From Thalassospiraceae bacterium LMO-JJ14 (GTDB taxonomy: Bacteria; Pseudomonadota; Alphaproteobacteria; Rhodospirillales; Casp-alpha2), in the NCBI GenBank assembly GCA_021555105.2, contig CP134604.1, positions 1,736,001-1,800,000 on the forward strand: a stretch of DNA of 64,000 bases, read 5' to 3'. A model generated the notes under the pieces. That model was not told the origin of the DNA. It did not search any database and was given only the letters and a program-made list of their open reading frames with translations. How positions within the stretch are numbered: the first letter of the stretch is position 1; each line of letters begins with the position of its first letter. This document shows, one piece after another, positions 21,228-47,227 of the stretch. The position numbers and the translations under genes are program-made.

Positions 21228-22235
21228 TCAGTTGACGCTCGGAATTTCAAAGACTTGGCCCGGATATATCAAATCCGGATCGATAATCCGACCCTTGTTC
21301 GCCTCGAATATCTGAGTATAGGAAAAACCCGAGCCGTATACACGTCTGGCAATACGCCACAATGAATTGCCGGGTTGTACCAGCACATAGGTGCCTTCGG
21401 CCATGGCCTTGAGATCCTCGGCACGCGAGAACGGATACTCGACACGGGCCAGGACCTTGCCTTGTGTGCCGATCTGGTCGGCCCGCAACGTATAAAGCCC
21501 CGGCGGGATGAGGTCTTCGGGGCGGGCGACCCACTGGCTGTCATCGCCGGCGGTCGTCCGGGCGATCAGATCGCCGTCCAGATAGAGCAGGACGCTCGCG
21601 CCCTTCGGTGCCGCGCCACCGACGATGACATGCCCCTTGGCATCGTAATCGATGGTGTCGATGGTCAGCGGAAATTGCGTGCGGTCCGTCGGCCCGGCCG
21701 GATTCTGGACGATCTTTGTCGGCGCGTTGGCGGCCTTCGGGAACTTCAGGACCATGGCGTTCTGTTGTTTCGGGGTGTCGGTCGCGGCATCTCTGGCCGG
21801 CACGGCAATGACCACATCTTCGCTCGACGCAATAACATTGCCGTTTTCAAGCACGGCCCTGAGCGTCAGATTGCGCGAGCCGGGGGACAGCGGTTCGGCG
21901 GGGATGAACACCCACTCGCCGCGCTCGTCGGCTGTCACTTTGCCGATCAGCGTATCGCCATCGAGAATCTGCACCTCGCTGCCCGGTGGCGCCTTGCCGG
22001 CGATGACCGTATCGCCCTCGGGATTGACGCGGATGACATCGAACGACGGCCCGTGCGGGGTAGGGGCTTCCGGTTCCGCGGCGGCCGTGCCGTCGGCCGG
22101 CTTTGCGGTGTCCTGGACGGTGGTTTCCGTGCCGTCTGCGGTGATTTCTTCCTGCCAGGCGAACTCGTTCAAACCGATCGCTGCTGCAATCGCGGCGAGG
22201 CCAAGAAGGACCAGCAGGATAGGTGTTTTAGACAT
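21228..22235 (-). CDS. LysM-domain protein with Ig-like repeats, membrane-anchored
   Basis: A 335-residue protein. An N-terminal membrane helix (MSKTPILLVLLGLAAIAAAIGL) is followed by an Ala/Pro/Thr-rich linker (about 25-65) and two bacterial Ig-like segments (VIRVNPEGDTVIAGKAPPGS and a second near residue 200, DAKGHVIVGGAAPKGASV). The C-terminal LysM domain (about 285-333, YVLVQPGNSLWRIARRVYG to LIYPGQVFEIP) binds peptidoglycan. The ATG at 22235 is chosen because it starts the membrane helix; an upstream extension to 22424 has no coding features and a weak start. Probably a periplasmic cell-wall-associated protein. It runs into psd. Confidence 0.88.
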   Translation of the reverse strand: MSKTPILLVLLGLAAIAAAIGLNEFAWQEEITADGTETTVQDTAKPADGTAAAEPEAPTPHGPSFDVIRVNPEGDTVIAGKAPPGSEVQILDGDTLIGKVTADERGEWVFIPAEPLSPGSRNLTLRAVLENGNVIASSEDVVIAVPARDAATDTPKQQNAMVLKFPKAANAPTKIVQNPAGPTDRTQFPLTIDTIDYDAKGHVIVGGAAPKGASVLLYLDGDLIARTTAGDDSQWVARPEDLIPPGLYTLRADQIGTQGKVLARVEYPFSRAEDLKAMAEGTYVLVQPGNSLWRIARRVYGSGFSYTQIFEANKGRIIDPDLIYPGQVFEIPSVN

Positions 22236-22389
22236 TGCTATTTGATTGCCATATTTATGCCCTGCATAAAAGAAATAGATGCATTCGCCGCGATACCGGC
22301 CGTCAGGCGCTAACGCGAACTTGATTGGACGTTTCGGCTGTCGCGGGCGATTTTTTAACCACGACATTATGACTGATTGAGGGAATCCC

Positions 22390-23100
22390 ATGTCAGAACA
22401 CACCCCGGAACAAATCCAAGGCACTGAAAACGTAGGTTCTACGCCGGTCTATGTCTGGGACGTTCCGACCCGCATATTCCACTGGTCACTGCTGGCCGCC
22501 GTCGCGACATCCCTGATTTCATCGGAATTTGGCCCGATGTCGGTGCACCTGATTTCCGGGCATGTGGTCCTGGCATTGCTGATTTTTCGCCTGTGCTGGG
22601 GGTTTTTGGGCGGCCGGCACGCGCGATTCGCAAGTTTCGTCAAGGGGCCGGTCACGGTCCTTAAATATGCCTGCCGTCTGAAGTCGGGTGAAACGCCGGC
22701 GCATCTGGGCCATAACCCGATGGGCGGATGGTCGGTGCTGGCAATCATCACCGTGCTCGCCGTGCAGGCGACAAGCGGCCTGTACGCCAATGACGATATT
22801 CTGACCGAAGGGCCGCTGGCCGACACCGTCTCCAAATCAACCAGCGATTATCTGACGTATATCCATCACCTCAGCTCGAACGCGGTGTATGCGCTGATCG
22901 TGCTGCATCTGGCGGCGGTCGCGTTCTATACGTTCAAGGGGCACGGCATCATTCGTGCGATGATCGACGGGCGGACGCGTGACATACCGCCAACGAGCGC
23001 AGATGTGCCGGCCGCACGCGACGCCAGGGGATCGATAATCGCCGCGTTGGTCATCGCCGCCTTTGCCGCGGCCGCGGCGTACGCAATCAACGTGTATTGA
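22390..23100 (+). CDS. Cytochrome b561-type membrane protein
   Basis: A 236-residue diheme cytochrome b of the Ni/Fe-hydrogenase b-type/COG3658 group. Four core helices carry candidate heme histidines: VPTRIFHWSLLAAVA (residue 31), LISGHVVLALLIFRLCWGFLGG (58), YIHHLSSNAVYALIVLHLAAVAFYTF (two) and KGHGIIRAMIDG. A fifth helix closes the C-terminus. GAGGGA lies 5 bases before the ATG. Such proteins pass electrons between the quinone pool and a periplasmic partner. No partner (cytochrome c, hydrogenase or molybdoenzyme) is adjacent, so its role is open. Divergent from the LysM gene. Confidence 0.88.
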   Translation: MSEHTPEQIQGTENVGSTPVYVWDVPTRIFHWSLLAAVATSLISSEFGPMSVHLISGHVVLALLIFRLCWGFLGGRHARFASFVKGPVTVLKYACRLKSGETPAHLGHNPMGGWSVLAIITVLAVQATSGLYANDDILTEGPLADTVSKSTSDYLTYIHHLSSNAVYALIVLHLAAVAFYTFKGHGIIRAMIDGRTRDIPPTSADVPAARDARGSIIAALVIAAFAAAAAYAINVY

Positions 23101-23242
23101 ACGGATAGGCCCTGCGGATGGCGGGGGATGATCCTGAACCGGCATGCGCGCAGGCAATAAGCTTCTGGCCGGTTGGTTTTATAGCGGTTGTGTGATCTGA
23201 TTTTGCCCGCGCCATTTCTTGTGACAATAACGGAGACAGCGA

Positions 23243-23638
23243 ATGTCGTTTGATCAAGCCAGCCTTGACGACCTCGCAACCAGATACACGGCAGCCTGGA
23301 ATACGAGAGTTCCCGAGAACGTTGCGGCCTTTCACGCGCCCACAAGCCGGATCATCATCAACAATGGCGAACCATCCGAAGGACACGATGGGATTACCGA
23401 GATGGCGGCGGGTTTTCATGCCGCTGTGCCGGACCTGGCGCTCCAAAATGACGGTATCCGAGGCGCCGGGGACCATGTTGTCTACATGTGGACGTTTAAG
23501 GGGCATGACGCCAACACCGGACATCCGTTATGCGTCAGCGGCTGGGAGGAATGGGAACTCGACGGGGATATGAAGGTCGCTTCGGCGCGCGGTTGGTTCG
23601 ATGCCGAGAATTACCAACGACAGATCGACGGTCTCTGA
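23243..23638 (+). CDS. SnoaL-like (NTF2 fold) small protein
   Basis: A 131-residue protein with the SnoaL/ester-cyclase-like pattern: LATRYTAAWNTRVPENVAAFHAP, GHDGITEMAAGFHAAVPDLAL, GDHVVYMWTFKGHDANTG, then a C-terminal GWFDAENYQRQ. These small cone-shaped proteins act as cyclases, hydrolases or binding proteins, and the substrate cannot be guessed. GGAG lies 8 bases before the ATG. It stands alone between cytochrome b561 (142 bases upstream) and a response regulator. It is unrelated in sequence detail to the DUF1348 protein at 17398 although the fold is the same. Confidence 0.8.
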   Translation: MSFDQASLDDLATRYTAAWNTRVPENVAAFHAPTSRIIINNGEPSEGHDGITEMAAGFHAAVPDLALQNDGIRGAGDHVVYMWTFKGHDANTGHPLCVSGWEEWELDGDMKVASARGWFDAENYQRQIDGL

Positions 23639-23758
23639 CTCCAATCCCCGTGGCACTTGTCAGAACTTGCAGATCAGGTAACAAATATTGCAAAAATTGC
23701 GAATGCACGGTTTTGAATTACGTATTGTTTGCTCCCTTAAAAGTAGGTTGTACGGGTA

Positions 23759-24139
23759 ATGACAGTAACTGCGGTCATTATTGATGATGAAGAATTGATG
23801 CGGCGGGTCGTTAGTGCCGGCCTGGAACAACTCGATGTATCAATCGTCGGCGAGACAGAAGACGGCCGGGCCGGGGTTGATCTTGTCCTCGAGTTGGAGC
23901 CGGACCTTGTTTTGCTCGACATCATCATGCCTGAATTAAACGGATATCTGGCCTTGGAAGAGATTATCGGGCGTGCTCATGACCCCTATGTCGTCATGAT
24001 GACCGCCATAGCGGATGAAGAAGTTTCCAGGAATTGCAGACTGGCCGGCGCGCAGGACTATATCCTGAAATCAGCCCCAATGACCGAGACCGTTGAGCGT
24101 TTGAGCCGGCACGTTAAGTTTCTGAAATCCCGCAAGTAG
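23759..24139 (+). CDS. Single-domain response regulator (receiver only)
   Basis: A 126-residue CheY-like receiver with no output domain. The acidic pocket is IIDDEE (residues 8-12), the phospho-acceptor Asp is in LVLLDIIMPELNG (near 57), Thr in VVMMTAIAD (near 85) and Lys in DYILKSAPM (near 105), so all key residues are intact. It probably acts in chemotaxis or phosphorelay signalling; no histidine kinase is adjacent. The upstream 120 bases are AT-rich and presumably hold its promoter. The ATG has no strong ribosome binding site (GGTTGTACGGGTA upstream). It converges on the HlyD gene. Confidence 0.88.
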   Translation: MTVTAVIIDDEELMRRVVSAGLEQLDVSIVGETEDGRAGVDLVLELEPDLVLLDIIMPELNGYLALEEIIGRAHDPYVVMMTAIADEEVSRNCRLAGAQDYILKSAPMTETVERLSRHVKFLKSRK

Positions 24140-24248
24140 CGCTTTATTCGACAGAGCCAATAGGTGCTCAGATGACAGCCTATGGCCACACCGTTCAGTT
24201 GTTTCCCCGGTAAAATACTATTTGCCTATACCTGCTTGCGCCGATACA

Positions 24249-25448
24249 TCACCGGGCCTCGATCCGGGCGCCGTCCGTGACCTGATCGGATGGGTGCAGG
24301 ATCACCCGTGCGCCCGCCTCAAGCCCCGATACCACCTCGGCATGCTCCGCATTGCGGGCGCCGAGTTCGACCGTCCGCAGGACCGCGCGGCCATCTTCCT
24401 CTGTGAACACGGACCAGGTGTCACCGGTGCGGAAGACCGCGCCGAGCGGTATCGCCAGCGACTCGATCTCATCCAGGACGATGGTCACGTCGACCCGGTA
24501 TCCATGCCGAAGCCGGGCCCACGTGTCAGGCGCGCCGATGAGATCGAGCAGCACGTCGACCCGCTGTTCATCGATCCCGAGCGCCGAAACCTTGGTGTAC
24601 CCGAACGGCTCAACCCGGCGCACTATGGCCTTCAGAGAAGAACCGCCCCAGCCGTCAATCACGGCGGGCATTCCGGCCAGCACCTTGACCGCGTCTTCCG
24701 AAAGCAGGTCGACGACGATTTGCAGGTCGCGCGGATCGCCGATTTCCAGTACCCCCGCGCCCGCCGGTAATGTGGTTTCGCTTTCCTCCAATATCTGCAG
24801 GATTTCGCCGTCAACCGGCGCCCGCAGGATCAAGCATTCGCAGTCGCTGAAACTGCGTTCCGTCGACGTCGGTGAAACCAGCCGCGCCTGGGCCACTTCA
24901 ACCTCGTGCCGCCGTTGATCGAGACGCGCCTGTGCGGTCAACAGGTCCGCCACGGCGATACGGTTGGCGCGTTCGTCCTGATCCAGTTTCTGTTTGGCGA
25001 TCGTGCCGTTGGCGAACAACTCGCGGCTACGCTCGACCTCGGCCGCGGTGAACGTCAAGTCCGCCTGTGCGCGTTTCAATTCCGCGGCGGCAAGGTTTTC
25101 GCTGGCGCGTGCCGCTTCCAGGGTGGCGCGCGCTTCGGTCTCGGTACGAACGTCAAGAAACACCGGCGCCGATGGTTCGATCCGCGCGATTTCGCTTTCG
25201 CCCGCGACGACGGCATCACCGACCTCGCCTTGAACCCTGAGCAGGCGGCCCGCGACGGGTGCGGAAACCCGGTACACTTCCTGCACTTCCGCCATGCCTT
25301 CGTCGGCGACGGTGATCCGGATTTTGTCTTCGCTAACGGTCGCGAAATCGACGGCAACCGGCTGCGGGCGGAAAGCGAACACCAGGGCAGCAACGACAAG
25401 AGCCGAGGCACTACCCCACAGGAAATACCGGACAAGATTTTTTTGCAT
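24249..25448 (-). CDS. HlyD/RND-type periplasmic adaptor of an ABC exporter
   Basis: A 399-residue adaptor with an N-terminal membrane anchor (YFLWGSASALVVAALVFAF). It has a lipoyl-like half (VYRVSAPVAGRLLRVQGEVGD), a long coiled-coil hairpin (about 90-180, rich in Ala/Glu/Arg), the second lipoyl half (ILRAPVDGEILQILEESE) and beta-barrel domains. The ATG at 25448 begins MQKNLVRYF, 2 bases after the FtsX stop. The frame continues upstream to 25817 only as a shadow of the FtsX gene. It is the third gene of an ATPase-permease-adaptor set, so it links the permease to an outer-membrane channel encoded elsewhere. Confidence 0.9.
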   Translation of the reverse strand: MQKNLVRYFLWGSASALVVAALVFAFRPQPVAVDFATVSEDKIRITVADEGMAEVQEVYRVSAPVAGRLLRVQGEVGDAVVAGESEIARIEPSAPVFLDVRTETEARATLEAARASENLAAAELKRAQADLTFTAAEVERSRELFANGTIAKQKLDQDERANRIAVADLLTAQARLDQRRHEVEVAQARLVSPTSTERSFSDCECLILRAPVDGEILQILEESETTLPAGAGVLEIGDPRDLQIVVDLLSEDAVKVLAGMPAVIDGWGGSSLKAIVRRVEPFGYTKVSALGIDEQRVDVLLDLIGAPDTWARLRHGYRVDVTIVLDEIESLAIPLGAVFRTGDTWSVFTEEDGRAVLRTVELGARNAEHAEVVSGLEAGARVILHPSDQVTDGARIEAR

Positions 25449-42036: not shown

Positions 42037-42318
42037 ATGAACGCGCGAATGCTAACGCGAAATATCATGATCGCCAAACGGCGGACGACGGTACGGCTGG
42101 AAGCTGCCGTGTGGGATGCGCTCGATGAGATTTGCAGCAATGAAGGCGTTACGCGTCACGAACTGTGTACGCGGATCGATCAGGTGCGCGGCGAGGCAAA
42201 TCGCGCACAGGCGGTAAGGGCGACCGTCGTCAATTATTTCCGGCTGTCGCAGAAACCGTCATTCAAAACCCGGATGATCGATCAGGCACTGCTGGGTGTG
42301 GATAATCAAAACGCTTAG
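42037..42318 (+). CDS. Ribbon-helix-helix domain protein
   Basis: A 93-residue protein of the RHH_4 type, small DNA-binding proteins common in alphaproteobacteria. The ribbon strand is RRTTVRLEAAVWDALDEICSNEGVTRHELCTRIDQVRG, with the usual basic-hydrophobic alternation (about residues 15-50). The C-terminal helix (AQAVRATVVNYFRLSQ) is also typical. GGAGAAG lies upstream of the ATG at 42037. Its targets are unknown; it may bind its own AT-rich upstream region, which follows the cyclase terminator. Its 3' end overlaps the DUF2889 gene by 4 bases (convergent). Confidence 0.85.
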   Translation: MNARMLTRNIMIAKRRTTVRLEAAVWDALDEICSNEGVTRHELCTRIDQVRGEANRAQAVRATVVNYFRLSQKPSFKTRMIDQALLGVDNQNA

Positions 42319-42890
42319 GCATCCGGTGATGCCTCATCCTCATCACCTACATAGAATTTCGGCCAGCGCCTTTTAACGATCGGGCTGGTCGCGGCAAGGG
42401 TGTGGCAGGTGTCCAGCGTGGCCGGCCGTATGCTGTCGCCGACGTCATCGCCGCGCTCCCGGCGCGCCGGAATGACCGCCTGATACGCGGTCACCGGAAG
42501 AGGCCCAAGCACAAGATCGGAAATATGCGTGCAGCCATGTGTGCGGCCCAGACGCGCAACCACGTTCTTGCGCCAGCCACGCCCGATCTTCAGTCCGACA
42601 AGTTTCTCGTAATCAGGTGCAATATCGCCGCACATGTTGAATGGCGCGGCGTCGGTTACGGCTTCGGCGGCATGCACCACCATCTCGTCGTCAATGGTCA
42701 GACGGACCCGCATCTGATGCACGGCTTCGCCGGCCGCGACCCCGTCACGGTCCTGATTTTCAAAGGAATAGGACTTGGTATCCGTTATGACCCCCTCAAC
42801 ATCCCACAGGCCGTCGTCACGCTGATAGGCATCGCAGCGGATTTCACGGGTGTGCATGTGTTTGCGGGGGCTGGCCTTGGAAAGCGGCAT
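42315..42890 (-). CDS. DUF2889 protein
   Basis: A 191-residue protein recognisable as DUF2889 by RKHMHTREIRCDAYQRDDGLWDVEGVITDTKSY near the N-terminus and RGWRKNVVARLGRTHGCTHISDLVLGPL. The HTREI and GCTHI segments with conserved His and Cys residues suggest a metal or ligand site, but no function is established. The ATG at 42890 has GGAG 8 bases upstream; the frame reaches back to 42899. DUF2889 genes are often found next to aromatic or acyl-CoA degradation genes. Here it is divergent from the TetR/acyl-CoA mutase operon, sharing a 97-base spacer that contains the operator. Confidence 0.85.
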   Translation of the reverse strand: MPLSKASPRKHMHTREIRCDAYQRDDGLWDVEGVITDTKSYSFENQDRDGVAAGEAVHQMRVRLTIDDEMVVHAAEAVTDAAPFNMCGDIAPDYEKLVGLKIGRGWRKNVVARLGRTHGCTHISDLVLGPLPVTAYQAVIPARRERGDDVGDSIRPATLDTCHTLAATSPIVKRRWPKFYVGDEDEASPDA

Positions 42891-42962
42891 GCTGATCACT
42901 CCTGTCGTTTGATGTCACATTTCGCTTTTGTCCGGCTCGTGTGCAAGGTATAAGTTGACCTA

Positions 42963-42976
42963 ACAAACGTTTGTTT
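42963..42976. promoter_or_regulatory. Perfect 14-bp palindromic operator
   Basis: AACAAACGTTTGTT lies 11 bases before the TetR start codon and in the spacer shared with the divergent DUF2889 gene. A TTGACC element (42956-42961) abuts it. The layout suggests autorepression by the TetR protein, with possible control of both directions. Confidence 0.7.
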
Positions 42977-42987
42977 AACGGGAAGTC

Positions 42988-43605
42988 ATGGACGGACAAG
43001 ACCTCATAAACGACGAAACGGCAAGGCCCAGAAACAACAATCGCCGGGCTGGAGTGTTGGATGCGGCTGCTTACCGTTTCCGCCGGCAGGGTTATGCGTC
43101 GACGACCATGCGCGACATCGCCGCCGATGCGGGGATGCTGGCAGGGTCGCTTTATTATCACTTCAAATCCAAGTCGGCGCTGCTGCTGGCGGTTCACGAA
43201 GAAGGCGTGCGACGAATCGCCGAAGCCGTCGATGGTGCCGTGGCGGCTTGCGATCCGAACGATCCCTGGCAGCAGCTCGAAAACGCACTGGCGGCACATC
43301 TGCAAAGTCTTCTGGATGGGGGCGACTATGCGCAGGTGGTGATTCGCGATCTGCCCGCCGATGCGCCGGAATTGCGCACCAAGCTGATCGGGCTGCGTGA
43401 CGATTACGAAAAGCGCTTCCGCCATCTGGTCGATGCCTTGCCGCTGCAGAACGCCGGGGACGCGGGCTGGATGCGGCTGATGCTGCTGGGTGCTGCGAAC
43501 TGGTCGAAAACCTGGTACCGGGCGGACGGAGATACGCCGGCGGAAATCGCCGGTCATTTCGTCCGCTTGTTACGCAACGATAAAACCGTGGGAACAAAGC
43601 CATGA
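42988..43605 (+). CDS. TetR-family regulator of the acyl-CoA mutase operon
   Basis: A 205-residue repressor with a TetR helix-turn-helix (about 20-68, VLDAAAYRFRRQGYASTTMRDIA and GMLAGSLYYHFKSKSALLLAVHEEG). Its C-terminal domain resembles the FadR/KstR2-like group that often senses acyl-CoA thioesters; that link is inferred. GGGAAG lies upstream of the ATG at 42988. The palindrome AACAAACGTTTGTT sits 11 bases before the start. Its stop overlaps the B12-subunit start (ATGA), so the regulator is the first gene of the operon it presumably controls, an arrangement giving negative feedback. Confidence 0.9.
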   Translation: MDGQDLINDETARPRNNNRRAGVLDAAAYRFRRQGYASTTMRDIAADAGMLAGSLYYHFKSKSALLLAVHEEGVRRIAEAVDGAVAACDPNDPWQQLENALAAHLQSLLDGGDYAQVVIRDLPADAPELRTKLIGLRDDYEKRFRHLVDALPLQNAGDAGWMRLMLLGAANWSKTWYRADGDTPAEIAGHFVRLLRNDKTVGTKP

Positions 43606-44069
43606 ATACAGTTGAAGCGTCTCAATCCTCCGGCATTCCGTCCGCTGTCGCCGGTCTGGCCCGCCCGCCGAAAGTGATGGTTACCAAGATCGGCCTCGAC
43701 GGGCATGACCGCGGTTCCAGGCTGGTCGCTTCGTTCCTGCGCGATGCCGGGATGGAGGTGATCTACACCGGCCCCTGGCAGCAGGTCGAAACCGTCGTCA
43801 ATCAGGCGGCGCAGGAAGATGTGGACTGCGTCGGCGTCAGTTCGCTGGCGACGGACCATCTGCTGGTGCCGAAGCTGATGCGCGCGCTGAAGGACGCCGG
43901 GTTGGACGATGTGATCGTCATCGTCGGCGGTATCGTCCCCGATGACGAGGAACAGATGCTGAAGGAAGCGGGGGTTGCGCAGGTATTTCATCCGGGCTGT
44001 TCACGCACCGATATCGTTGACGGCATTGCCGCGCTGATCGTCGAACGCCGCAAGAAGTTGGGAGAGTGA
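43602..44069 (+). CDS. B12-binding small subunit of an acyl-CoA mutase
   Basis: A 155-residue protein that is almost entirely a cobalamin-binding domain. It has the DxHxxG signature [10 protein letters not shown] (Asp33, His35 as lower axial Co ligand, Gly38), then [13 protein letters not shown] and [13 protein letters not shown], both standard in the B12-dependent mutases. Separate small subunits of this length are known for isobutyryl-CoA mutase and 2-hydroxyisobutyryl-CoA mutase; methylmalonyl- and ethylmalonyl-CoA mutases are longer. The start overlaps the TetR stop (ATGA) and the stop overlaps an in-frame GTG before the large subunit. It acts with the protein at 44072 and needs adenosylcobalamin. 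Confidence 0.93.
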
Positions 44070-44071
44070 CA

Positions 44072-45754
44072 ATGAGCGAAGATCGTAAAAACACAGCGCT
44101 GGGCCAGGATTTCGAAGCCGCCCGCGACAACTGGCGGGATTCCTACGAGGCGCACCTGCCGAACGAAAAACCGCGCCGCAACCGTTCCGGCATCGAGATC
44201 AAGCCGCTGTATACGCCGGAAGACTGGTCGCCGGACGAGTACATGCCCGATCTCGGCTTTCCGGGCGCGACACCATATACGCGCGGCATCTATCCGACCA
44301 TGCACCGCGGCCGCTCGTGGACGCAGCGCCAGTTGATCGGTCTCGCCACGCCGGAAGACTACAACGCCCGCATGCGCCGTATCGTCGACACCGGTGCCAC
44401 GGCGCTCAGCATGATCCCGTGCAATTCGGTCTATCGCGGCTACGACATCGATGAAGTGGATATCGAGATTCTCGGCACCTGCGGCACCACGATCAACACC
44501 ATCGAGGATATGGAAACCTGTCTCGACGGCGTGCCGATCGGCGACATGTCGGTGGCACTGAATGACCCGTCGCCGTTCACGCTGCTGGCGTTCCTGCTGG
44601 GGGTCGCCAACCGCCGCGATATTCCGTGGTCCAGGATTTCCGGCACCTCGAACCAGAGCGATTACATCTCGCACTATGTCGCCAACCACATGTTCTTCCG
44701 GCTTGCGCTGGGCGGCGCGCGCCGCGTGTTCGTCGATCATGTGCAGTTCGCCAACGAACGTCTGCCGATGTGGAACCCGGTCTCGGTGGTCGGGCAACAC
44801 ATGCAGCAGTCCGGCGCAACGCCCGCCGAAGCCATGGCCTTCACGCTGGCGTCGGCGATCCAGTATGCCGAGGACTGTCAGGCCCGCGGGCTCGACGTCG
44901 ACACCTTCCTGCCGCGTTTCACATTCTTCTTCGATATCTCGATCAGCTTTTTCGAGGAAATCGCCAAGTTCCGCGCCGGGCGGCGCATCTGGGCGCGTCT
45001 CGCCAAGGAGCGGCTGGGCGCGACGGATTCCCGGGCCTGGCGGTTCAAGTTCCACGCCCAGACCTCGGGCGTCGATCTGACCCGCCAGCAGCCCTTGAAC
45101 AACATCGCCCGGACCACGGCGCAGGCGATTGCCGGTATTCTCGGCGGGCTGCAGTCGATGCACACCGACGCCTATGACGAGGTGCTCTCCACACCGACCG
45201 AGGCGGCGGCCAAGATCGCCATCCAGACGCAGAACATCCTGCGCGAGGAAGCGGGCCTGACCGACGTCATCGATCCCTTGGGCGGATCGTACTATGTCGA
45301 GGCGCTGACCGATCAGATGGAAGAAAAAATCATGGCCGCATTCGACGAGATCGATGCCGCCGGCGGCATGTTCGCCGCCGTCTCTTCGGGGCTGGTGCAG
45401 GACAAGCTGGGCGAGTCATCGCTCGACTTCCAGCGCCGCGTCGAAAGCGGCGAGCAGACGGTTGTCGGCGTCAACGCCTACGCCGATGACGAGCCGGTCC
45501 CGGTGACGCCGCTGGAACGCCCGGAACGCGCGGCCATGGAGGCGCAGATCGCCAAGCTGAAGACGTTCAAGGCCGAACGCTCCAACGCCGCCGTCGAAAA
45601 AGCGCTGGCGGCGATGGCGCGGGCTTGCGGCGACGAAAGCCTGAATGTCTTCGAGGCGCTGGTGGCTGCTGCCGAAGTCGGCGCAACGCATGGCGAAATG
45701 TGCGCCTGCCTGCGCCGTGAGCTGGGCTTCGGTCAGCCGTTGATCGCGGCGTGA
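44072..45754 (+). CDS. Divergent acyl-CoA mutase large subunit (B12-dependent, unknown substrate)
   Basis: A 560-residue TIM-barrel subunit of the methylmalonyl-CoA mutase superfamily. The fold-defining pieces are clear: [61 protein letters not shown] and the C-terminal [11 protein letters not shown]. His243, His328 and Gln330 match catalytic residues of methylmalonyl-CoA mutase. The Tyr89 position is His78, and the AFD segment before RGYD is replaced by Ile115-Pro116-Cys117. Tyr243 is Gln242, and the loop with Arg207 reads RLALGGARR. This differs from methylmalonyl-, isobutyryl- and hydroxyisobutyryl-CoA mutases as I recall them, so the substrate is unknown. GGGAGA precedes ATG 44072; GTG 44066 is an alternative start. 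Confidence 0.9.
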
Positions 45755-46230
45755 GGGACCCGGTAACGAACATGGATACCAGCATGGACACGAACGTGGG
45801 CGCACACAGCGAAACGCGCGCCCGCGTCGAGGCGATGCTGGCCCGCGACAACTGCGCCGGGGCGCTCGGCATAGAAGTGGTGAACGCGTCGCCGGGGCTT
45901 CTCGATCTCAGGATGACGATCAGTGCCGAGCACCTGAATTTCCTGAAATGGGGCCATGGCGGGGTTCTGTTTACCCTGGCCGATACGGCTTTCGGCATGG
46001 CATCGAATACCTACGAGCAGGTGTCGGTGGGTATCGATGCGCACATCTCATATCTGTCGGGGGTGCGCGAGGGCGATGTCATAGAGGCCCGGGCCCGGGA
46101 AATCAGCCGCACGCGCAGAAAGGCGGTTTACCGCGTCGACGTGGTCCGGCCATCGGACGATGTCGCCATCGTCGCCTTCACCGGGACGGTTTTCATCACC
46201 GAACAGATGGTCGAAGACACGCTCAAATAA
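45751..46230 (+). CDS. PaaI-type hotdog thioesterase
   Basis: About 159 residues with a hotdog fold of the PaaI/phenylacetyl-CoA thioesterase group. It has [19 protein letters not shown], then the core [27 protein letters not shown] (the Asn/His-Gly-Gly and acidic catalytic residue pattern of PaaI), and [20 protein letters not shown]. It would hydrolyse an acyl-CoA, probably the product or a side product of the mutase in the same operon. The start is uncertain: GTG 45751 overlaps the mutase stop (GTGA), while ATG 45772 has GAGGGA upstream. It is the last gene of the operon and converges on the EamA gene 1 base away. Confidence 0.88.
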
Positions 46231-46231
46231 A

Positions 46232-47140
46232 TCAGGGGGCTGTTTCCAGCGGCGGCGGCGCCTTGGGCGCGCGCTTGCGTTCGCGATAGATCGTATAAAG
46301 ACCGCTGGCGACGACAACCGATGCACCGACGACGGTCCAGAAATCCGGCAGGTTGTCGAAGAACAGATAGCCGATCACGGTGGCGAATACCAAAAGCGTA
46401 TAGTTGAACGGCTGCAGCGTCGAAGCGGGGGCCGCTTCCAGTGCCTTGATCAACAGGAAATGTCCCGACGCCGCCGTGAACGACAGACAGATCAGCCAGA
46501 ACCAGTCGATCAGCGGCGGGTCGATCCAGTAAAACGGGCCGATGCACGTCAGTACGACGGCACCGATCACGGCCATGTAGACCGTCGACGTTTCGCCGTC
46601 GTCGTATTTGGCGACAAGGCGCGTCATGACGTTGTAGCCGGCGAACATCAGTGCCGTCAGCAAAGCCAGAAAGACCGCCGGTTTGATATCGATGATGCCG
46701 GGACGGATGATGATCAGCACACCGATGAAGCCCGCGAATACGGCGCTCCAACGGCGGATACCGACGGGCTCGCGGAGGAAAAGCGCGGCGATGCCGGTGA
46801 CCATCAGCGGAAACGTCGCCAGCAGTGCATGCATCTCGGCCAGCGTCATGTAGCGGATGGCGACGATGAACATGCCGATTTCCGTGACGATCAGCAAAGA
46901 ACGCGCGATCTGCAGCCACGGCGCGTTGCTTTTCAGGCAATATCGCAGCGGCCGTTTGCGGGCCGAAAACGCCAGTGCGAACAGAGCATAGAAAACGAAC
47001 CGCACCCACAGGATCTGCGGCACCGAATAGCTGGCGGCCAGCGTCTTGGTGATCGCGTCCTGGGTTGCGAAAATAAACATCGCCGAAACCACAAGTGTGA
47101 TCCCGAGCGTGGCATTGTCCTGGTGCGGGGCGTTTCTCAT
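46232..47140 (-). CDS. EamA/DMT-family transporter
   Basis: A 302-residue membrane protein with ten predicted helices in two EamA halves. The first half starts LGITLVVSAMFIFATQDAITKTLA and includes LAEMHALLATFPLMVTGIAALFL; the second starts LALLTALMFAGYNVMTRLVAKYD and ends FWTVVGASVVVASGLYTIYRERKR. DMT exporters move amino acids, nucleobases and other metabolites. No substrate clue is visible, though its position right after the acyl-CoA mutase operon is noted. ATG at 47140, with a TTG one codon upstream; neither has a good ribosome binding site. The 3' end nearly touches the thioesterase stop. Confidence 0.9.
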   Translation of the reverse strand: MRNAPHQDNATLGITLVVSAMFIFATQDAITKTLAASYSVPQILWVRFVFYALFALAFSARKRPLRYCLKSNAPWLQIARSLLIVTEIGMFIVAIRYMTLAEMHALLATFPLMVTGIAALFLREPVGIRRWSAVFAGFIGVLIIIRPGIIDIKPAVFLALLTALMFAGYNVMTRLVAKYDDGETSTVYMAVIGAVVLTCIGPFYWIDPPLIDWFWLICLSFTAASGHFLLIKALEAAPASTLQPFNYTLLVFATVIGYLFFDNLPDFWTVVGASVVVASGLYTIYRERKRAPKAPPPLETAP

Positions 47141-47227
47141 CAACGCCGATTAAGGCATAAGCGGGAAAATGGAAAGCCTGCAAGCTGCTTTATTTCGCCA
47201 TGCCTGCCATGCGCCCACGGGGCGGTC

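Follow-up and report, generated by a model that had tools for sequence, protein, structure and literature searches.

A candidate pivalyl-CoA-type mutase operon with a PaaI-type thioesterase in Thalassospiraceae bacterium LMO-JJ14

Which acyl-CoA is rearranged by a B12-dependent mutase whose large subunit has kept the fold of its family and changed much of its pocket? The question is raised by four plus-strand genes at 42988-46230 of the window (the whole stretch of 64,000 nucleotides analysed here, covering bases 1736001-1800000 of a genome of 3.89 Mb in one contig), which encode, in this order, a TetR regulator, a B12 subunit, a mutase large subunit and a thioesterase, and for which a reaction matching no known mutase had been proposed. 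That proposal is weakened by our analysis, yet not fully refuted, because the link to a substrate consists of a reported assignment for one relative, 66% identity and a set of pocket variants. We regard it as rather probable that the operon encodes a pivalyl-CoA-type mutase, converting pivalyl-CoA to isovaleryl-CoA, and a CoA-rescuing thioesterase, under the control of the TetR protein.

Layout of the operon

The features of the locus, in window coordinates, are:

42962..42975, no strand: predicted operator for the TetR encoded in this operon, a perfect palindrome (AACAAACGTTTGTT), from the sequence
42988..43605, plus strand: TetR-family regulator, TetR_N (PF00440) and TetR_C_24 (PF17932)
43602..44069, plus strand: B12-binding (small, beta) mutase subunit, PF02310, with the DGHDRG cobalamin motif
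44072..45754, plus strand: AdoCbl-dependent acyl-CoA mutase large (alpha) subunit, placed in the putative pivalyl-CoA mutase clade by tree and pocket alignment; PF01642, 561 bits
45751..46230, plus strand: PaaI-type hotdog acyl-CoA thioesterase, PF03061, HGG...AD catalytic motif, starting at GTG or at ATG 45772

Domain matches agree with the original prediction on the identity and common strand of the four genes. The TetR gene opens the operon in most relatives, and relatives of the B12 subunit, 55-85% identical, sit immediately 5' of the large subunit. Of the 4-base overlaps that were said to link all four genes, the one between TetR and the B12 subunit (ATGA) is certain, while the other two require GTG starts. 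For the large subunit the alternative would be GTG 44066, but ATG 44072, 2 bases past the stop of the B12 subunit, is the more likely start, since members of the genus share the N-terminus from this codon onward, and our residue numbering is counted from that ATG. The thioesterase scores 106.9 bits against TIGR02286, whose cut-off is 118.9, and lies above the cut-offs of TIGR00369 and PF03061, with the HGG...D motif in place. An AF2 model of the large subunit, for which, as for our other AF2 models, the alignment was built from genome loci only, reached a pLDDT of 80.6 and had HCM 4r3u as its best fold match (TM 0.89). The genome encodes three other PF01642 proteins, namely a 748-aa MCM, a 716-aa protein with ECM motifs and an 1128-aa IcmF.

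The operon is flanked on its 5' side by a divergent gene (42315-42899, minus strand) for a DUF2889 protein, whose position is kept in the genomes of the family and for which we know of no function, and on its 3' side by a converging gene for an EamA-type transporter (46232-47143, minus strand); EamA-like genes also lie 3' of the mutase, on the same strand, in about ten betaproteobacterial loci.

Clade and pocket of the large subunit

The large subunit is 30-38% identical to MCM, HCM, ECM and IcmF (fused isobutyryl-CoA mutase), and 66% identical to Xaut_5043 of Xanthobacter autotrophicus Py2, its best plasmid match. In a tree made from a quick search, in which ECM is a single long-branched row and no IaaG sequence is included, the window mutase and its relatives form a monophyletic clade (SH-aLRT 100) on a long stem, separate from MCM, HCM and IcmF and with Xaut_5043 inside it. 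We take Xaut_5043 and Xaut_5044 to be the authentic pivalyl-CoA mutase PcmA/PcmB (Kitanishi, Cracan and Banerjee, J Biol Chem 2015). Xaut_5043 is not an HCM, because the other mutase on its plasmid, Xaut_5021, is the HCM ortholog there (988 bits to 4r3u). The claim that the enzyme matches no known mutase thus stands for the MCM, ECM, HCM and IcmF clades and gives way at the clade of Xaut_5043, presumably that of pivalyl-CoA; judged by sequence, the large subunit is strongly diverged, yet no orphan, being a member of one well-supported clade. The HCM gene of the Py2 plasmid belongs to an operon of its own (L188:8612-15129, Xaut_5018-5023) with a ligase, MeaB and a cobalamin adenosyltransferase.

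Orthologs with 66-100% identity occur in 16 genomes of the family, after which the next matches fall to 39%. A scan of the genome collection confirmed at least 287 relatives, of which 80 were kept, mostly from Alpha-, Beta- and Gammaproteobacteria and 62-92% identical; lone MAG contigs that bear the names Propionibacterium, Nitrospira or Desulfovibrionaceae may have been binned wrongly. The gene is patchy under even sampling (about 10 of 386 Alphaproteobacteria), and at a strict cut-off the window's own genome was the only positive one among 397 drawn from the phylum. Six plasmids carry the gene, and a search of viral contigs returned no relative. On a plasmid of a Sphingobium strain from contaminated soil, a near-identical block of TetR, B12 subunit, mutase and MeaB occurs twice (L117:10914-14624 and 21251-24962), with IS elements in between.

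The pocket was compared in an alignment of human MCM, 4r3u, the genome's own MCM, ECM and IcmF, and members of the clade, MCM residues being numbered after P. shermanii. The residues first reported for the large subunit, His78, Ile115-Pro116-Cys117, Gln242, His243, His328 and Gln330, were all found, as was a loop without PSMR, which reads GGARR. The role given to His78 was mistaken, however: its counterpart in P. shermanii MCM is Tyr79, and the substrate gate (Tyr89 in MCM, Tyr in ECM, Phe in IcmF, Ile90 in HCM) is Leu88 in the window mutase. A further change, absent from that earlier account, is Asn205 at the position of MCM Arg207, which is Gln in HCM and IcmF, and Ile115 occupies the place of HCM Asp117. 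Leu88 and Asn205 are each present in 88 of 92 clade members, the window mutase and Xaut_5043 among them, while position 78 alternates between His and Tyr. The clade is clearly marked in its sequences by Leu88, PC at 116-117, SNQSD, Asn205-His206 and Gln242.

Arg207 of MCM binds the carboxylate of the substrate, and Asp117 of HCM goes with a hydroxyacyl substrate. With Asn205 in place of the arginine a carboxylated substrate would therefore be disfavoured, and with Ile115 at the aspartate position a hydroxyacyl substrate as well, so that we infer a neutral and roomier pocket, suited to an uncharged alpha-quaternary acyl-CoA. An MCM should have Tyr89, Arg207, Tyr243 and the AFD segment, but the window mutase has Leu88, Asn205, Gln242 and IPC; an HCM, a reading that we rejected, should have Ile90, Asp117 and Gln at the 207 position, where we found Leu88, Ile115 and Asn205, in a separate clade. 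HcmAB (4r3u) resembles our pair in fold and in its split subunits and differs from it in sequence (37% identity). For isobutyryl-CoA mutase the comparison was with the IcmF type, leaving aside the two-component IcmA: the Phe gate, the Gln at 207 and the fusion to a G protein are all missing, and the subunits are split. IcmF itself, a single fused chain with 30% identity, is pertinent because it has been reported to interconvert pivalyl- and isovaleryl-CoA too (PMC10481361, PMC9974510), and one copy is encoded in this genome. The phenylsuccinyl/benzylmalonyl-CoA mutase IaaGH (PMC8360864), considered because a CaiB transferase adjoins the mutase in some relatives, is disfavoured, as its substrates carry a carboxylate and the window mutase has lost Arg207.

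How far the assignment of Xaut_5043 can be carried over to the window is a question of subgroups. Both enzymes have His78, Leu88, Pro116, Cys117, Asn205, His206 and Gln242, so that the case named at the outset as refuting an unknown reaction, a clade of known specificity with identical residues at 78, 115-117 and 242, very nearly holds for Xaut_5043, the exception being Ile in the window and Leu in Py2 at 115. Besides 115 they differ at 118 (N/C), 120 (V/G), 121 (Y/F) and 207 (M/Q), giving the motifs IPCNSVY and NHM in the window against LPCCSGF and NHQ in the Py2 subgroup. Because these five pocket positions differ, specificity could have shifted, and a related substrate could take the place of pivalyl-CoA. 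It is conceivable, and in our estimate unlikely, that only the Py2 subgroup is a true pivalyl-CoA mutase and that the substrate of the main subgroup (IPCNSV, NHM) is an alpha-quaternary acyl-CoA which is larger or bears other substituents, 2,2-dimethylbutyryl-CoA and a gem-dimethyl terpenoid fragment being examples; the subgroups do differ consistently at the five positions, but Leu88, Pro116, Cys117, Asn205, His206 and Gln242 are identical in both.

A truly new substrate would be better sought in a side group of three mutases (L132:6448-8091, L134:5820-7463 and L136:2006-3664) with 57-59% identity and another pocket (Leu205, APCNSHM and, in the one copy looked at, a Val gate); at L132 and L134 the mutase is the second copy of its genome and has no B12 subunit beside it. 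A further group at 40-42% identity (L128:1501-3036 and L145:7159-8781, both minus strand) falls outside all reference groups and has VAFDLPTQ, Arg at the 207 position, and glycines at the positions of His328 and Gln330.

Neighbouring genes and the proposed reaction

In a survey of conserved neighbours in other genomes, which the original prediction had suggested, MeaB, PaaI, ligase and Liv genes and one carboxylase cluster were found beside clade mutases. The carboxylase cluster, seen in one locus only, lies on a Sulfitobacter plasmid, where the mutase has residues identical to the window's at 78, 88, 115-118, 205-207 and 242 and is followed immediately 3' by genes for a carboxylase, a crotonase and an acyl-CoA dehydrogenase. 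The beta subunit of this carboxylase scores 588-612 bits to AccD1/methylcrotonyl-CoA carboxylases, 427 to geranyl and 260 to propionyl enzymes, and a methylcrotonyl-type cluster of this kind fits isovaleryl-CoA as the product that the mutase would yield; the dehydrogenase of the cluster, compared with known isovaleryl-CoA dehydrogenases, was not nearest to them. Away from the operon, the window's own genome has a cluster in which an MCC beta gene (53%) is joined by genes for MCC alpha, a crotonase and a dehydrogenase; this dehydrogenase is likewise not nearest to isovaleryl-CoA dehydrogenases. That a copy of the main type adjoins a methylcrotonyl-type carboxylase speaks against a larger substrate for the main subgroup, which the variation of neighbours by lineage (ligase and Liv, CaiB transferase, thiolase, dehydrogenase) would favour. 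The same neighbours, together with the neutral Leu88/Asn205 pocket and the assignment reported in 2015, make it very improbable that the clade carries out an altogether new reaction and that pivalyl-CoA mutase activity was never demonstrated for Xaut_5043, even though the stem branch is very long and none of the curated family models names the clade.

The same neighbours bear on the direction of the reaction. The Py2 operon runs TetR, B12 subunit, large subunit, MeaB, PaaI, ligases and Liv transporter; it resembles ours in its split alpha and beta subunits, TetR-beta-alpha order, palindromic operator and PaaI gene, and differs in adding MeaB, two ligases and the transporter. Acyl-CoA ligase and Liv-type uptake genes are also added in Comamonadaceae loci, and neither ligase nor transporter was found beside the window's operon. 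A thioesterase without ligase or transporter, in the window and in the family, would be in keeping with an enzyme that ran in reverse, turning leucine-derived isovaleryl-CoA into pivalyl-CoA, from which the thioesterase would release pivalate as overflow or which would prime tert-butyl lipids. We give this reverse direction little credence, as in plasmid relatives the operon goes together with genes for uptake and for an acyl-CoA ligase, a pairing that speaks for catabolism.

On the catabolic reading that we prefer, the TIM barrel of the large subunit would hold the acyl-CoA and the small subunit AdoCbl. Homolysis of the Co-C bond would give an adenosyl radical, the CoA-thioester carbonyl group would migrate, and pivalyl-CoA (2,2-dimethylpropionyl-CoA) would become isovaleryl-CoA, to be consumed by enzymes of leucine degradation encoded elsewhere in the genome. 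The enlarged, neutral pocket would owe its character to Leu88 in place of the Tyr/Phe gate and Asn205 in place of the carboxylate-binding Arg207. PaaI would most likely free CoA from pivalyl-CoA or another stalled acyl-CoA whenever the fragile mutase is inactive, and TetR, bound to the palindrome at 42962-42975, would keep the operon repressed until released, probably by an acyl-CoA.

Thioesterase, MeaB and regulation

That the thioesterase belongs to the system, as first suggested, was borne out. A thioesterase of the window's type is present in all 16 genomes of the family that have the mutase and nearly absent from the rest, and in one extra genome that has it the end of a mutase gene lies beside it at a contig edge. 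Among 73 relatives with enough downstream DNA, MeaB adjoins the mutase in 51 and PaaI in 38. In 21 loci (L111:11644-12825, L116:13634-14818, L043:3692-4894 and 18 others) a MeaB G domain and a PaaI hotdog are joined in one ORF, usually of 393-412 aa, which lacks the C-terminal arm of MeaB, has the hotdog in its place and is annotated merely as MeaB; one such fusion is the 395-aa Diaphorobacter protein WP_166071533.1. An AF2 model of the fusion folds into the two domains, which match MeaB structures and PaaI, and fused forms stand at two or more, perhaps four, places in an approximate tree of G domains. These MeaB-PaaI fusions are the freshest observation of our analysis. Co-occurrence and fusion make a strong case, from sequence, that the thioesterase is a genuine and conserved part of the mutase system, and because the fusions join it physically to the chaperone, it would serve the mutase itself. 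The hotdog domain presumably takes over dimerisation from the MeaB arm. More tentatively, and with considerable doubt, we propose that the thioesterase takes an active part in mutase repair, in which a hotdog dimer would pair two G domains and clear stalled acyl-CoA during delivery or ejection of AdoCbl, making a chaperone that also erases substrate, with the free PaaI of the window as the unfused version.

In the window, as noted before, no MeaB gene adjoins the operon, in contrast to most relatives, and the distribution of the gene indicates that the operon MeaB was lost locally, in the window's genus. The genome has MeaB-type G proteins at 2290732, at 3037921 and inside IcmF. The first was tried as the lost partner and rejected, as it is present with or without the mutase and falls outside the operon MeaB group. 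This second stand-alone MeaB (G000:C1:2290675-2291613, L148) has no mutase beside it here, is shared by almost every genome of the family and in some lies beside HCM-like genes.

The palindrome AACAAACGTTTGTT ends 12 bases 5' of the TetR start and, at one mismatch or fewer, has its sole occurrence in the genome there; a wider regulon was sought by searching the genome for the operator, which returned this operon alone. Of 64 distinct relatives, 43 have the form AAACGNNCGTTT, again with at most one mismatch, 5' of TetR, where 0.2 are expected from shuffled sequence. As the operator is unique in the genome and kept upstream of TetR across the clade, TetR is most likely a local autorepressor.

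Since annotation pipelines label these proteins "acyl-CoA mutase" or "methylmalonyl-CoA mutase", a route for acids with a quaternary carbon, widespread and sometimes plasmid-borne, has probably been hidden. Pivalate, a pollutant that derives from drugs, sequesters CoA, and the enzyme set could be of practical use for that reason. The conserved operator predicts how the clade is regulated, and the MeaB-thioesterase fusion leads to a hypothesis, open to testing, about the clearing and repair of radical B12 enzymes.
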